64,000 nt of DNA from Asanoa sp. WMMD1127 (GTDB lineage Bacteria; Actinomycetota; Actinomycetes; Mycobacteriales; Micromonosporaceae): contig NZ_JARUBP010000001.1 in NCBI RefSeq assembly GCF_029626225.1, positions 3,844,001-3,908,000 of the forward strand, in the 5' to 3' direction. Under the pieces are notes generated by a model. It worked only from the letters and a program-made list of their open reading frames with translations, made no database searches and was not told the DNA's origin. The position numbers and the translations under genes are program-made. Of the stretch, positions 15,568 to 21,988 are shown piece by piece. How positions within the stretch are numbered: position 1 is the stretch's first letter; each line of letters begins with the position of its first letter.

Positions 15568-15649
15568 TCATCCGGCACCGCCCCGCGCGTCGGCTGGGAG
15601 CGAGTCGTACTGATGTTGCAAGATGCGAGTCGTGGTATCGGTGGGAGCG

Positions 15650-17389
15650 ATGGGTGAGCAGAGTGCGGTCGGTCGGGTGCTCGGCACCTCCGACGCCACT
15701 CCGCTGCAGTTCTGGACGGCCGTCACGCCGGGCAGCTACCTGCAGCTCGACGACGTCGTGGTGACCACCCGCGAGCTGCCCGACCGCCCGCCGGTGCGGA
15801 TCGCCGGCGTGGTGACCCAGGTGCGGGCCCGACACGAGGGCGCGGTCTTCGACTCCGACGTCTTCGCGATCGCCGACGGCACGCTTCCCGCCCAGGTGCA
15901 GGAGGCCGCCGAGATCACCGTCACCCGGGTCGACCCGGAGCTCTACGTGCCGCCCGCGCCCGGCGCCCTGGTCCACCGAGCCACCGGCGACCTGCGCGCG
16001 GCCGCGCTCCACTTCGACCGGATGGAACGCCAGATCCCGATGGGTACGGGTCGCGACGGCATCCCGGTCTACCTCAACGCCGACTTCCTCGACGGCAGCC
16101 GCGGCGCGCACGTCTCGATCTCCGGCATCTCGGGCGTCGCCACCAAGACCAGCTTCGCCACGTTCCTGCTCTACTCGGTGTTCAACTCGGGCGCCCTGGG
16201 CCCCGACTCGGTCAACGCCAAGGCGCTCATCTTCAACGTCAAGGGCGAGGACCTGCTCTTCCTCGACCACCCCAACGTCAAGCTCGACGACAGGACCACG
16301 GCGGCGTACGCGGCCCTCGGCCTGCCGGCCAAGCCGTTCGCCGACGTCCGGGTCTACGCGCCACCGCGGCTCGGCGACGCGTCCGGCACGCCCGACGTGA
16401 GCAGCCGGCTCTCCGGCGTCGACAGCTTCTACTGGACGCTCGAGGAGTTCTGCGCCGAGCGGCTGCTGCCCTACGTGTTCGCGGACGCCGACGACGAGCG
16501 CCAGCAATACACGATGGTCGTGCACGCCGTCACCGCCCACCTGGCCCGGCACGCGGTGCCGGCCGACGGCGGCATCGCGCTCGACGGCACGCGGCTCGGC
16601 TCCTACGCGGACCTCGTCGACTTCGTGGTCGCCCAGCTCTCCGACGACGAGACCCGGTTCACCTGGACGGGCAGCGCCGTCGGGCTGGGCACCATCAACG
16701 CGTTCGCCCGCCGCCTGATCGCCAGCAAGCGTGACCTCGGCCGGCTGATCCGCGGCGACCTGGCCACCCGCCGGCCGCACCAGATCAACACCGACGAGAG
16801 CGCCCAGGTCACCGTCGTCGACCTGCACAACCTGCCCGACCGCGCCCAGCGGTTCGTGGTCGGCGTGACGCTCAAGAAGGAGTTCGAGCGCAAGGAGAAG
16901 AAGGGCACGGCCAAGCCGCTGCTGTTCGTGGTGCTCGACGAGCTCAACAAATACGCGCCGCGCGAGGGCTCGTCGCCGATCAAGGAGGTGCTGCTCGACA
17001 TCGCCGAGCGGGGCCGCTCCCTGGGCGTGATCCTGGTCGGCGCCCAGCAGACGGCCAGCGAGGTCGAGCGCCGCATCGTCACCAACTCGGCGGTCCGCGT
17101 GGTCGGCCGGCTCGACCCGGCCGAGGCGTCCCGGCCCGAATACGGTTTCCTGCCGCCCGCCCAGCGGCAGCGGGTGCTGCTCGCCAAGCCCGGCACCATG
17201 TTCGTCAACCAGCCCGACATCCCCGTGCCGCTCTGCCTCGAGTTCCCGTTCCCGTCGTGGGCGACCCGGCACTCCGAGGCGGGCGCGGCGCCGACCGGCT
17301 CGCTGCGCTCGGTCACCCAGTCGGCCGACCCGTTCGCGGTGGTCGGCTCCCGGTCGGGCGCGCTGTCCGACGACGACATCCCGTTCTAG
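15650..17389 (+). CDS. HerA-like hexameric DNA-translocating ATPase
   Basis: The 579-residue protein has an N-terminal beta-barrel (HAS-like, about residues 5-100) and an ATPase core. The P-loop segment is GISGVATKTS (159-168), where the usual GK-S/T is TKT. Walker B is LLFVVLDELN (424-433). AQQT (465-468) and the following VERRIVTNSAVRVVGRLDPAEA complete the FtsK/HerA signature. HerA translocates DNA and feeds it to NurA. It is the first gene of an operon with Mre11-, Rad50- and NurA-like partners. The ATG at 15650 was preferred because homologous starts read xxxVGRVLGTxDATPLxFW; an in-frame ATG exists at 15623. Confidence 0.88.
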   Translation: MGEQSAVGRVLGTSDATPLQFWTAVTPGSYLQLDDVVVTTRELPDRPPVRIAGVVTQVRARHEGAVFDSDVFAIADGTLPAQVQEAAEITVTRVDPELYVPPAPGALVHRATGDLRAAALHFDRMERQIPMGTGRDGIPVYLNADFLDGSRGAHVSISGISGVATKTSFATFLLYSVFNSGALGPDSVNAKALIFNVKGEDLLFLDHPNVKLDDRTTAAYAALGLPAKPFADVRVYAPPRLGDASGTPDVSSRLSGVDSFYWTLEEFCAERLLPYVFADADDERQQYTMVVHAVTAHLARHAVPADGGIALDGTRLGSYADLVDFVVAQLSDDETRFTWTGSAVGLGTINAFARRLIASKRDLGRLIRGDLATRRPHQINTDESAQVTVVDLHNLPDRAQRFVVGVTLKKEFERKEKKGTAKPLLFVVLDELNKYAPREGSSPIKEVLLDIAERGRSLGVILVGAQQTASEVERRIVTNSAVRVVGRLDPAEASRPEYGFLPPAQRQRVLLAKPGTMFVNQPDIPVPLCLEFPFPSWATRHSEAGAAPTGSLRSVTQSADPFAVVGSRSGALSDDDIPF

Positions 17390-17403
17390 TTCAGGAGGTT
17401 CGC

Positions 17404-18549
17404 GTGCGCATTCTGCACACCTCGGACTGGCACGTCGGCAAGGTCCTCAAGGGACAGTCGCGGGCCGAGGAGCACGTCGCGGTGCTCGCCCAGGTGGTCG
17501 AGATCGCCCGTGCCGAGCAGCCTGACCTGGTGATCGTGGCCGGCGACCTCTACGACACGGCCGCGCCGTCGCCGGACTCGACCCGGCTGGTCACCCGCGC
17601 GCTGTCGGCCCTGCGCCGGACCGGCGCCGACGTGGTGGCGGTCGGTGGCAACCACGACAACGGCGCGGCGCTCGACGCCCTGCGGCCCTGGGCCGACGCC
17701 GCGGGCATCACCTTGCGGGGCAGCGTCCGGGAGAACCCGGCGGAACACGTCATCGAGGGCACGACCGCGGGCGGCGAACGCTGGCAGCTGGTCGCCCTGC
17801 CGTTCCTGTCGCAGCGCTTCGCGGTCCGCGCGGTCGAGATGTACGAGCTGACCGCGGCCGAGGCCACCCAGACCTACGCCGACCACCTGTCGCGCCTGGT
17901 CGGCAAGCTGACCGAGGGGTTCTCCGCGTCGGGCGTGGTCAACCTGGTCACCGCCCACGTGACCGTGCACGGCGCCAGCCAGGGCGGCGGCGAGCGCGAG
18001 GCCCAGACCGTCATGGGCTACGCGGTGCCGGCCACCGTGTTCCCGCCCAGCGCGCACTACGTGGCGCTCGGCCACCTGCACCGGGCGCAGGCGGTCCTCG
18101 GGCCCTGCCCGATCCGCTACAGCGGCAGCCCGCTCGCCATCGACTTCGGCGAGGGGGAAAACGTGCCGGCGATCTCGATCGTCGACGTCACCGCCTCGAC
18201 GCCCGCCAAGGTCCGTGAGGTGCCGGTGACGGCGGCCGTCGCGCTGCGCACCGTGCGCGGGACGTTGGAGCAGCTGGCGTCGCTCAAGACCGGCGAGGCG
18301 TGGCTGCGGGTCTACGTGCGGGAGACGCCGCGGGCCGGGCTGCGCGAGGAGGTGCAGGAGCTGCTGCCGCGGGCGCTTGAGGTCCGGATCGATCCCGATC
18401 TGGTGCCGTCGACGCCCGGACCGCGGGCGGAGGAACGCGCGGGTCGGTCGCCCCGGGAGCTGTTCGCGGCCTATCTCACCAGCCGTGGGGTCGACGACGA
18501 GGGCGTGCAGGAACTGTTCGACGAGCTCTACGAGGAGGCGTCGGCATGA
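17404..18549 (+). CDS. sbcD: SbcD/Mre11-type exonuclease subunit
   Basis: The 381-residue protein has all metallophosphoesterase motifs: D8-x-H10 in SDWHVGK, GD (47-48) in VAGDLYD, GNHD (82-85), H in TAHVTVHG and GHLH in ALGHLHRAQ. With SbcC it would form the ATP-regulated 3'-5' exonuclease and hairpin endonuclease that trims protein-blocked or hairpin DNA ends. The GTG start at 17404 follows a strong AGGAGG (17393-17398, 5-bp spacing), 14 bp after the HerA-like stop. Its stop overlaps the SbcC start by ATGA. Confidence 0.95.
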   Translation: MRILHTSDWHVGKVLKGQSRAEEHVAVLAQVVEIARAEQPDLVIVAGDLYDTAAPSPDSTRLVTRALSALRRTGADVVAVGGNHDNGAALDALRPWADAAGITLRGSVRENPAEHVIEGTTAGGERWQLVALPFLSQRFAVRAVEMYELTAAEATQTYADHLSRLVGKLTEGFSASGVVNLVTAHVTVHGASQGGGEREAQTVMGYAVPATVFPPSAHYVALGHLHRAQAVLGPCPIRYSGSPLAIDFGEGENVPAISIVDVTASTPAKVREVPVTAAVALRTVRGTLEQLASLKTGEAWLRVYVRETPRAGLREEVQELLPRALEVRIDPDLVPSTPGPRAEERAGRSPRELFAAYLTSRGVDDEGVQELFDELYEEASA

Positions 18550-21020
18550 GACCCCTTCGGCTTGATATGGCGGGGTTCACGGTCTTCCGTGATGAGACGA
18601 CGGTCGACTTCACCGATGCCGACTTCTTCGCGCTGGTCGGCCCGACCGGCGCCGGCAAGTCCACTGTGCTCGACGCCATCTGTTTCGCGCTCTACGGGCA
18701 GGTGCCGCGCTGGGGCAGCAGCCGGGGCATCGCCAACGCGCTGTCGCCGTCGGCCACCGAGGCCCGGGTGCGGCTGGTGTTCGAGTCCGCCGGCGCCCGC
18801 TACGTGGCCACCCGGGTGGTGCGCCGCGACAGCCGGGGCAACGTCAAGACCGGCGGCGCCGGGCTCCAGCAGATGCCCGACAACTTCGACGTGTCCAAAC
18901 TCGACACCGGCATGACCCCGGAGGACCTCGGTGACGTGCTGGCCGGGACCCCGGGTGAGATGGACGACGCAGTGTTGCAGGCGGTCGGGCTGCCGTACGA
19001 GCAGTTCACCAGCTGTGTGATCCTGCCGCAGGGGCAGTTCGCCGACTTCCTGCACGCCAAGCCGGCGACTCGGCAGCAGATCCTGGTCAACCTGCTGGGC
19101 CTGCACGTCTACGAGGACATCCAGAAGCGGGCCACCGCCCGGGCCCAGCAGGCCGACGCCGACCTGCGCGCAGTCGACCAGCTGCTGGCGGGCCTCGACG
19201 ACACCTCCGACGAGGCCTTGGCCGAGGCGGCCGACCGGGTCGAGGCGATGCTCGCCCTGGCCACGCGGGTCACCGACGGCATGCCGGCGCTCGACGAGGC
19301 CCGCCGGGTGGCGTCGGCGGCGGCCGCCGGGCTGACCGCGCTCGACGACGAGATCGCCCTGCTGGAGCGGGTCCGCGCGCCCCGCGGCGTCGCCGCCCTG
19401 GCCTCCGCGGCGGCGGCCGCCCGCGACGACGCGACCGAGGCGGCCGACGCGGTCACCGCGGCCGAGGAGCGCGAGGAGAAGCTGCGCGGCGAGCTGGCGG
19501 CGGCGGGCGACCCGGCCGCGCTGCGCCTGCTGTTGCGCGCCCACGAGGAGCACGACGCCGTGCGCGCCGAGCTGTCCGGTCTCCACAGTGGAGTCTCCGC
19601 CGCGACGGCGGAGCACCGGACCGCGGAGGCCGCCCTCGAGAAGGCGCGGGCGGCGGCGCTGCGCACGGCGGCGGAGCTGGATGCGGCCCGGCGGGCCTAC
19701 CAGGACGCGCAGGCGGCCGACCGGGCGGGCGCCCTCCGCGTCCACCTGCACGCCGGCGCGCCGTGCCCCGTGTGCGAGCAGCCGGTCGCGACCGTCCCGG
19801 CGGTGCCGTCGACCTCGGCCGTGCCCGCGGCGGAGCAGGCCGGCCACGCGGCCAAGGCGGCCGACGACAAGGCGCAGGCCCAGGTCGCCGAGCGGGAGAA
19901 GGCGGCCCGCGCGCTGGAGCGCACCCTCGACCGGGCCCGGGCGCAGCACGAGCAGCTCGAGTCCCGGCTGGCCGCGCTCGACGCGCAGCTGACGACCTCA
20001 CCGGGCGTCGCGGCCCTGCGCCGCGAGCTGGCGACCCTGGCCGCGCTGCAGAAGTCGCTCGACGGCGCGGTGGCGGCGCTGAAGTCGGCCCGCGAGCAGG
20101 CCCGCACCGCGAACGCGGCCCGGTCCGCCGCCGAGCAGCGGCTGACCCAGGGGTGGCGGGAGTTCGACACCGCCCGCGACGGGGTGGCCCGGTTCGCCCC
20201 GCCGGCGGCCGCGCGCGAGGATCTCGCGGAGTCGTGGTCGGCGCTGGCCGAGTGGTCGGCGGCCGAGGTGGAGAGCCGCCGGGTCGCGCGTACCGCCCTC
20301 GCCGATGCCGCCGCCGACGCGGACGCCGCGGTAGCCGACGCGCGGTCGCGGCTCGACGCGGCCTTCGTCGACGCCGGCCTGCCGGCGCCCGACGACCACG
20401 TCCGGGCGGCGACGGTCGCGGTCGAGCGGGCGACCGCCGCGCACCAGCGGGTCGAGGAGCGCCGCGCCCAGGCGCAGGGCCTGCTCGACAAGCGCACCGC
20501 GCACGAGCACGACGGCCAAATCGCCAAGTCGCTCGCGAGCCACCTGCGGGCCAACAACTTCGAGCGGTGGCTGCTGGAGGAGGCGCTCGACCTGCTGGTC
20601 GAGGGCGCGTCGCGGATCCTGCGGGAGCTGTCCGGCGGGCAGTACGACCTCGTTCACGAGAAGGGCGAGTTCTCGGTCGTCGACCACCACGACGCCGGCC
20701 TGCGCCGCGGCGTGCGCACCCTGTCCGGCGGCGAGACGTTCCAGGCGTCGCTGGCCCTCGCGCTGGCGCTGGCCGAGCAGCTGGCCGGGATGTCGACGTC
20801 GGCCGCGAGCCTGGAGTCGATCCTGCTCGACGAGGGCTTCGGCACGCTCGACGCCGCGACCCTCGACACGGTCGCCGCGACGCTCGAGGGCCTGGCCGCC
20901 CGCGGCGACCGGATGGTCGGCGTGGTCACCCACGTGCCGGCGCTGGCCGAACGGGTGCCGGTGCGGTTCGACGTCACCAAGGACGCCCGCTCGGCCCACA
21001 TCACCCGGAGCGGGATATGA
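18546..21020 (+). CDS. sbcC: SbcC/Rad50-type SMC-like ATPase
   Basis: The 824-residue protein has Walker A GPTGAGKST (32-40), Q-loop segment QGQFADFLHAKP, and two long Ala/Arg/Glu-rich coiled coils flanking a zinc hook CPVC (Cys407, Cys410). The ABC signature is LSGGE (726-730), and Walker B is ILLDEGFGTLD (759-769). At 824 residues it is shorter than E. coli SbcC (about 1,050) and closer to archaeal Rad50, consistent with its archaeal-style neighbours. It overlaps sbcD and the NurA-like gene by ATGA on each side, so the three are translationally coupled. Confidence 0.95.
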   Translation: MRPLRLDMAGFTVFRDETTVDFTDADFFALVGPTGAGKSTVLDAICFALYGQVPRWGSSRGIANALSPSATEARVRLVFESAGARYVATRVVRRDSRGNVKTGGAGLQQMPDNFDVSKLDTGMTPEDLGDVLAGTPGEMDDAVLQAVGLPYEQFTSCVILPQGQFADFLHAKPATRQQILVNLLGLHVYEDIQKRATARAQQADADLRAVDQLLAGLDDTSDEALAEAADRVEAMLALATRVTDGMPALDEARRVASAAAAGLTALDDEIALLERVRAPRGVAALASAAAAARDDATEAADAVTAAEEREEKLRGELAAAGDPAALRLLLRAHEEHDAVRAELSGLHSGVSAATAEHRTAEAALEKARAAALRTAAELDAARRAYQDAQAADRAGALRVHLHAGAPCPVCEQPVATVPAVPSTSAVPAAEQAGHAAKAADDKAQAQVAEREKAARALERTLDRARAQHEQLESRLAALDAQLTTSPGVAALRRELATLAALQKSLDGAVAALKSAREQARTANAARSAAEQRLTQGWREFDTARDGVARFAPPAAAREDLAESWSALAEWSAAEVESRRVARTALADAAADADAAVADARSRLDAAFVDAGLPAPDDHVRAATVAVERATAAHQRVEERRAQAQGLLDKRTAHEHDGQIAKSLASHLRANNFERWLLEEALDLLVEGASRILRELSGGQYDLVHEKGEFSVVDHHDAGLRRGVRTLSGGETFQASLALALALAEQLAGMSTSAASLESILLDEGFGTLDAATLDTVAATLEGLAARGDRMVGVVTHVPALAERVPVRFDVTKDARSAHITRSGI

Positions 21021-21988
21021 CGGAATACTTCATCGACAACTGGGACCCGGCGTACGGCGCGTCGTTCGAGACCTCCACCGCGCCCGCGGCGCAGAGCAGC
21101 GCCCAGGTCAACACCGACGTCGAGCTGCCGGCGGCATCGTGGCGCCCGCTGACCGCGCCACCGACCGTCCGGGCCCCCGACGTGGTGCTGCTGGTCGACG
21201 GCGTGCGCCGGATCGACGCGACGCTGTGGACCCGCGAGGACGACGGCACGTCCCACCCGGGCCTGGCGGCGTCCTACGCGGCGGGCGTGGTCCGCTGCGA
21301 CCTGCGCGCCGGCGCCGCCACGATGGCCGGCACGCTCGTCGAACGCGGCCTGTTCACCACCTCGCCGACGGCGACCGACATCGCGGCCGGAGCGGTCCGC
21401 TACGGCGTGCGCCAGATCTCCGGCGCCCCTGACCCGGCCCGCCTGGTGCCGGCGGTCCAGGGCCCGCTGACCGCGCTGGAGGTGGCGGTCTCCACCCAGG
21501 TCCGCGGCGAGTCCGACGACCTGCTGGTGGTCGACGGCCCGCTGCGCAACCGCCGCCAGCTGACCCGCACGATCGGCTACGTGAAGACGCAGCAGAGCCA
21601 ATATCTCGACGCGACGCTGACCAACGTGGTGACCGCGCTGCGCCCCGGCGAACGCTCGCCGGTCTTCCTGATGGGCACGGCCTGGGGCGGCTACACCTGG
21701 TACCTGCGCCTGCCCGGCCCGACCGGAGCGCCGTGGGCGGGCATCGTGCGGGTGGAGTGCTCGACGGAGCTGCCGTCCCAGGAGGCCATCGAGCTGGCCG
21801 ACCTGTCCCTGGTCACCCTGCCGCGCTTCGCCTCGACGCCCTACAAGGACCCGCGGGCACCCCAGAACCTGATCCCGATCGCAGGCCTGGAACGCCGCCT
21901 CCGCGGCCTACTCGGCGACTCCCGCCTTCTGCACCGCGCCCTGACCCTCGCCGCCGCCCGCAGCGCCGCGGTGCCCGTGGGGCGATAG
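21017..21988 (+). CDS. NurA-like nuclease, fourth member of the resection operon
   Basis: The 323-residue protein shows the NurA pattern. A first acidic strand LLVDGVRRI holds D61. A second acidic motif VVDGPL holds D173. A YVKTQ segment holds K190. The C-terminal RAPQNLIPIAGLERRLRGLLGD resembles the YPxxL-x-xAH end of NurA. NurA has an RNase-H-like fold and acts as an exo/endonuclease driven by HerA. The match is by motif spacing and by operon context rather than overall similarity, so it is a strong but not certain call. The ATG overlaps the sbcC stop (ATGA). Confidence 0.75.
   Translation: MTEYFIDNWDPAYGASFETSTAPAAQSSAQVNTDVELPAASWRPLTAPPTVRAPDVVLLVDGVRRIDATLWTREDDGTSHPGLAASYAAGVVRCDLRAGAATMAGTLVERGLFTTSPTATDIAAGAVRYGVRQISGAPDPARLVPAVQGPLTALEVAVSTQVRGESDDLLVVDGPLRNRRQLTRTIGYVKTQQSQYLDATLTNVVTALRPGERSPVFLMGTAWGGYTWYLRLPGPTGAPWAGIVRVECSTELPSQEAIELADLSLVTLPRFASTPYKDPRAPQNLIPIAGLERRLRGLLGDSRLLHRALTLAAARSAAVPVGR

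Follow-up and report, generated by a model that had tools for sequence, protein, structure and literature searches.

HerA–NurA pairs are already known from bacteria (PMC9960219, PMC4663267), and the closest described relative of the locus studied here is that of Deinococcus radiodurans (structures 7f6d and 7wrw; PMC9960219). In vitro, drHerA–NurA translocates duplex DNA, digests the 5′ tail and leaves a 3′ tail; K175, T176, D487, E488 and the pore residue R495 of drHerA are residues tested experimentally, and W8, D53, K201 and R309 of drNurA are needed for nuclease activity (PMC9960219). The D. radiodurans genes were studied without SbcCD, the connection to which was left open (PMC4663267). 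In Sulfolobus, the homologous four genes, ordered herA-mre11-rad50-nurA (PMC4351679) and presumed to act in end resection, are co-induced by UV and essential (PMC4641729, PMC4351679). Bacterial SbcCD beside HerA–NurA, in the order nurA-herA-sbcD-sbcC, has been described in Oceanithermus profundus, within one genus, and interpreted as an archaeal HerA with later recruitment of SbcCD (PMC5448004). The role of bacterial HerA–NurA is disputed, with Deinococcus knock-outs lacking a repair defect and an antiviral role having been proposed. Our search of the open-access literature (subscription papers lay outside it) found no description of an actinobacterial HerA–SbcCD–NurA unit.

The window, by which we mean the whole stretch of 64,000 nucleotides analysed, belongs to the 7.97 Mb genome of an Asanoa-like member of the Micromonosporaceae (nearest HerA matches 96–97%, in Asanoa species), where it occupies C1:3844001–3908000. 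Its forward strand carries four contiguous genes: herA, for a HerA hexameric DNA translocase ATPase identified by sequence and fold (15632–17389 from the inferred GTG start, the start in the earlier note being 15650); sbcD, for an Mre11/SbcD-type metallophosphoesterase nuclease (17404–18549); sbcC, for a Rad50/SbcC-type SMC-like ATPase of 824 residues (18546–21020); and nurA, for a NurA RNase-H-fold nuclease of 323 residues identified by profile and fold (21017–21988). The gene coordinates bear out the co-directional layout that the earlier note had described, with a 14-bp gap between herA and sbcD and ATGA overlaps at the sbcD/sbcC and sbcC/nurA junctions; as in the archaeal operon, the four genes are contiguous and co-directional. 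The arrangement is far beyond chance, and the operon is very probably a DNA-end-processing unit. Its base composition is the same as that of the flanking DNA. A gene for a putative Uma2 endonuclease (PF05685; 21988–22548) directly follows nurA, but we place it outside the unit because it was found only in the three Asanoa relatives.

In phmmer searches, HerA matched D. radiodurans HerA (7f6d) at 2.1e-149, with the remaining HerA proteins at 0.002 or worse, and a profile built from 34 relatives reached D. radiodurans HerA in the PDB at 2e-203. Structure-prediction alignments were made with plasmid-derived rows left out. The AlphaFold2 (AF2) model (pLDDT 84.7) confirmed the 15650 product as a HerA, with the HAS-barrel and RecA-like fold present: it superposes on D. 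radiodurans HerA 7wrw with a Z score of 46.7 over 532 residues (rmsd 2.9, 51% identity; VIA), the next best structure being Sulfolobus HerA (Z 27.1, 15% identity). K166 and T167 (Walker A), D430 and E431 (Walker B) and R438 align with drHerA K175, T176, D487, E488 and R495, respectively; among 34–35 relatives the first four are invariant and R438 is conserved at ≥90%. The likeness to the Deinococcus protein extends to an unusual Walker A context, GISGVATKTS. Structure comparison also shows that the HerA fold is common to FtsK, TrwB and VirB4, and Thermus HepA is required for DNA donation (PMC5448004), both of which would suit an FtsK/VirB4-like pump for chromosome or plasmid DNA handling in segregation or conjugative transfer. 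With nuclease and SbcCD partners whose active sites are intact, and a promoter common to repair genes (see below), we regard such a function as very improbable.

The 21017 product matched D. radiodurans NurA at 1.6e-19 (phmmer) and 6.7e-57 (profile), and the profile also reached Thermotoga NurA in the PDB at 1.7e-20. Its AF2 model (pLDDT 92.4) gave Z scores of 24.0 against drNurA 7f6d, 23.9 against TmNurA 1zup and 14.5 against Sulfolobus 2ygk (VIA), so that the RNase-H fold expected for this protein was indeed found, with the same fold as D. radiodurans NurA and the experimentally tested catalytic residues kept. W9, D61, K190 and R280 correspond to drNurA W8, D53, K201 and R309 and are invariant in 35 sequences, W9 being matched to W8 by position, beyond the pairwise alignment. 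Where a strand-splitting pin would follow the conserved W there is a segment, WDPAYGASF, but residues 16–19 are modelled at pLDDT <50. The suggested Pfam search (NurA, PF09376) did match the protein, yet at 16.7 bits against a cut-off of 21 bits; we attribute this to insensitivity of the Pfam profile for this NurA clade, the profile and fold evidence being far stronger. As a PF09376 survey of the phylum missed the host genome, HerA and NurA queries were used instead, and profile surveys therefore undercount bacterial NurA.

SbcD matched NCBIfam TIGR00619 at 3.6e-51, as well as Pfam Metallophos and SbcD_C, and keeps all its motifs (HTSDWH, GDLYD, GNHD and GHLH). SbcC matched TIGR00618 at 2e-75, with 254 bits, which lies below the whole-protein cut-off of 478.5 bits, and has Walker A GPTGAGKST at position 32, the zinc-hook CPVC at 407, LSGGE at 726 and Walker B at 759. 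Archaeal Mre11 and Rad50 models fit the two proteins much more poorly than the bacterial models do. The length of 824 residues had been read as closer to archaeal Rad50, but SbcC scores as a bacterial SbcC (254 bits, against at best 62 bits with archaeal Rad50 models), and the length is therefore no sign of Rad50. A search of the host genome for a second SbcC gave nothing better than 2.9e-4, and the sole match there to the standard type of SbcD was the gene of the cluster itself (33% identity). The cluster thus encodes the only SbcCD found in the host genome, whereas both SbcD types coexist in other members of the class (family codes f90 and parts of f91). The genome also encodes an AdnAB-like pair of UvrD and PD-(D/E)XK proteins, so that the module adds to AdnAB instead of being the alternative to it that had been proposed.

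NurA was detected in 98 of the 101 sampled Micromonosporaceae genomes, and gene order and strand are constant across the loci of this family that are of sufficient length. The upstream neighbours are also conserved in the family (RibD_C at 77/82 and PRiA4_ORF3 at 71/82 loci). Beyond it, HerA was present in 20 of 346 genomes of a class sample, under five family codes, and in 90 of 396 genomes of a phylum sample (E ≤1e-30), the weakest of these matches being remote. The complete set of four shares a strand at 65 of 78 HerA-bearing loci drawn from other families, a few additional members of the same family and plasmids, many of the remainder being contig ends. Two gene orders account for these 65 loci, although in some the genes are not strictly adjacent: herA-sbcD-sbcC-nurA, hereafter order A, at 38 and nurA-herA-sbcD-sbcC, that of Oceanithermus and hereafter order B, at 27. 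Trees of HerA, NurA, SbcC and SbcD, which were quick trees with SH-aLRT support only, each require a single switch between the two orders. The cluster SbcD proteins form one clade, apart from E. coli SbcD and the standard actinobacterial (Streptomyces-type) SbcD. Since the four genes usually occur together and changed order once per gene tree, they were inherited as a unit, and there is good support for the view that they were retained together. Sequence, profile and fold comparisons establish the identities of the four proteins, their intact catalytic residues and their co-inheritance. The actinobacterial unit differs from the Oceanithermus set in that it is spread across the phylum sample, two orders predominate and all four genes are co-inherited; it differs from the D. 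radiodurans genes in that herA and nurA flank sbcD and sbcC within a single operon, which has a damage-type promoter.

Several variants were observed among these loci. An insert of ~1.56 kb separates sbcD from sbcC in two Micromonospora genomes, and in three genomes of the phylum sample neither sbcCD nor nurA was matched within ~8–10 kb of a Deinococcus-type herA. A Streptomyces linear plasmid (NZ_CP134205.1:410754-432376) has all four genes, ordered as in the window and adjoining Wadjet-like genes (TIGR02678/2679/2680, DUF2397), an ImmA/IrrE peptidase, a helicase and a restriction endonuclease, and a cyanobacterial conjugative plasmid (AP018315.1:39013-54722) carries nurA-herA-sbcD-sbcC, with nurA and herA annotated as 'hypothetical protein'. 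These two copies indicate that the unit can travel.

The earlier note took the locus for an archaeal-style operon acquired or retained as a unit. An operon of HerA, SbcD (Mre11), SbcC (Rad50) and NurA in the order herA-mre11-rad50-nurA does occur in this actinobacterium, but neither the archaeal style nor the acquisition is supported, as all its proteins are of bacterial type: HerA and NurA are of the bacterial (Deinococcus) type, SbcC and SbcD are bacterial SbcCD, and the best matches are bacterial for all four genes. PDB profile searches with the window HerA and NurA retrieved no archaeal HerA and no archaeal NurA, respectively, up to an E-value of 1, archaeal structures being reached only by fold comparison, and an archaeal origin of the window proteins was rejected. 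The kinship with the Sulfolobus operon (PMC4351679), which shares the four activities, order A and the presumed function in end resection, is structural only (HerA 15% identity, Z 27; NurA 13% identity, Z 14.5), and that operon is essential in Sulfolobus. A gain of the operon from Archaea, for which this match in activities and gene order could be cited, and which accords with the archaeal source of bacterial HerA–NurA favoured in two studies (PMC5448004, PMC12977600), is hardly credible given four proteins out of four of bacterial type and two gene orders, deeply diverged, within the phylum. The depth of that divergence implies that any transfer would be very old.

The promoter region upstream of the herA operon contains the element TGTCGTAC. 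In full, the promoter-like element GAGTCGTAC-N8-CAAGAT (15602–15624, forward strand) has the layout of the PafBC-dependent or RecA-independent (P1) promoter, tTGTCRgtg-N8-TannnT, and an in-frame GTG at 15632, 7 nt past it, is probably the true, leaderless start of herA, judging from the sequence. In mycobacteria, this motif defines the RecA-independent (RecA-NDp or recA P1) promoter (PMC5656591), which PafBC activates upon binding single-stranded DNA (PMC11804915). The herA element departs from it in its first two bases, GA instead of the TT consensus, and in its triplet, TAC and not the mycobacterial GTG. The strict mycobacterial motif (TTGTCRGTG-N8-TANNNT, ≤2 mismatches) was found upstream of herA at only 1 of 79 family loci. 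A related element was present at 50 of 81 family loci and at none in shuffles, although its relaxed TGTCRKAC form was derived from the block conserved across the family and is partly post hoc, the independent tests being the whole-genome and recA checks. The pattern NTGTCRKWS-N8-YANNNT also preceded the first gene (herA or nurA, depending on the order) at 12 of 65 loci, mostly from other families and including both gene orders, compared with 0.05 in mononucleotide shuffles; related genomes account for several of the 12. A LexA box upstream of herA was looked for and rejected, with such boxes at 2 of 79 family loci against 1 in shuffles.

Across the host genome, TTGTCRKWS-N8-YANNNT occurred at 46 sites, against 5 for a reversed control pattern. 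Behind the 43 readable sites, ORF starts lay at +6 in 10 cases and at +7 in 6, with about one at each other offset, a pile-up that is as expected for leaderless promoters. The recA gene is preceded by CTGTCATAC-N8-TAGGTT, its GTG lying at +6 and a LexA-like box farther upstream, and the herA promoter is of the same class as this recA promoter; a site on the AdnAB side deviates from the element at one position. Other genes behind the element encode an ATP-dependent ligase, a PcrA/UvrD-like protein, two NAD-dependent ligase-like proteins, an AP-endonuclease (endonuclease IV-like), two AlkZ-like glycosylases and a Nudix protein. Repair genes make up 7 of 22 ORFs downstream of the element, false ORFs included in the 22 (p ~2e-7 under an assumed repair-gene share of 2%). 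The Asanoa promoters resemble the mycobacterial PafBC promoter in the TGTCR core, the 8-nt spacer, the YAnnnT −10 element and their position before repair genes, recA among them. They differ in the triplet that follows TGTCR, which in Asanoa is usually TAC or GAC and in mycobacteria GTG. TTGTCRKAC-N8-YAnnnT with leaderless starts 6–7 nt on marks a candidate DNA-damage regulon across the Asanoa genome. The operon may accordingly be read, from its promoter class, as damage-induced via PafBC or a similar regulator.

We consider it likely that the operon is a damage-inducible end-resection module that works in parallel with AdnAB. SbcCD would recognise and open blocked or hairpin ends, the HerA hexamer would pump the duplex into the NurA dimer, and NurA, by degrading either the 5′ strand alone or both, would provide 3′ single-stranded DNA for RecA, alongside AdnAB. 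Translocation and 5′-tail digestion are proposed here because of homology to drHerA–NurA, and the physical cooperation of SbcCD with HerA–NurA, the strand polarity and the biological role are all to be understood as predictions. Two published results speak against a repair role: deletion of nurA-herA in D. radiodurans was not sensitising and even raised survival of UV and MMC (PMC9960219), and a study of T. kodakarensis HerA–NurA doubted resection and suggested an antiviral function (PMC12977600).

The main rival is anti-phage or anti-plasmid DNA degradation, in which HerA–NurA, with SbcCD opening the ends, would destroy incoming linear DNA in the manner of Sir2-HerA, DUF4297-HerA and TdpAB. 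The HerA and NurA folds are common to anti-phage HerA complexes and TdpAB, the Streptomyces linear-plasmid copy adjoins Wadjet-like and restriction endonuclease genes, another copy is on a cyanobacterial conjugative plasmid, the distribution outside the family is patchy (20 of the 346 class genomes), and the antiviral proposal for archaeal HerA–NurA (PMC12977600) points the same way. Within the Micromonosporaceae, however, the unit is near-universal and syntenic, and its near-universal presence with conserved upstream genes makes it look like a housekeeping module and not a defence island. Its promoter element is common to recA and ligase genes, and the unit has no gene for a toxic partner fused to it or beside it. 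Where Sir2-HerA and DUF4297-HerA systems combine a HerA of their own type with a Sir2 or DUF4297 partner, the partner gene here is nurA. The nearest relative is Deinococcus HerA–NurA, and anti-phage HerA profiles match weakly, the best being the PADLOC HerA model at 8.8e-07, while NCBIfam HerA_antiphage_2 matched at 0.0046 with 15.8 bits against a cut-off of 850 bits. A primarily defensive function thus seems unlikely to us, and the near-universal, syntenic, repair-regulon setting favours repair in the Micromonosporaceae, although repair and defence roles are not mutually exclusive, as with RecBCD.

On the reading as a resection module, HerA–NurA is here tied to SbcCD and DNA repair by operon structure, co-inheritance and a recA-type promoter, and this in culturable Micromonosporaceae, which makes the question of repair versus defence directly testable. 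We also suggest, as a tentative extension that is possible rather than probable, that Actinomycetota may possess an old, phylum-wide third end-resection machine besides AdnAB and the RecF-type pathway, in which HerA, SbcCD and NurA are always co-inherited and wired to a single-strand-sensing, PafBC-type response, and which might have replaced ordinary SbcCD in the Micromonosporaceae; the four-gene state may even be original for bacterial HerA–NurA, of which the two genes of Deinococcus would then be a remnant. In the one annotated Streptomyces copy, HerA is named 'ATP-binding protein' and NurA 'hypothetical protein'; with its genes unnamed in public annotation, an entire resection machine can easily go unnoticed in the genomes of actinobacteria.
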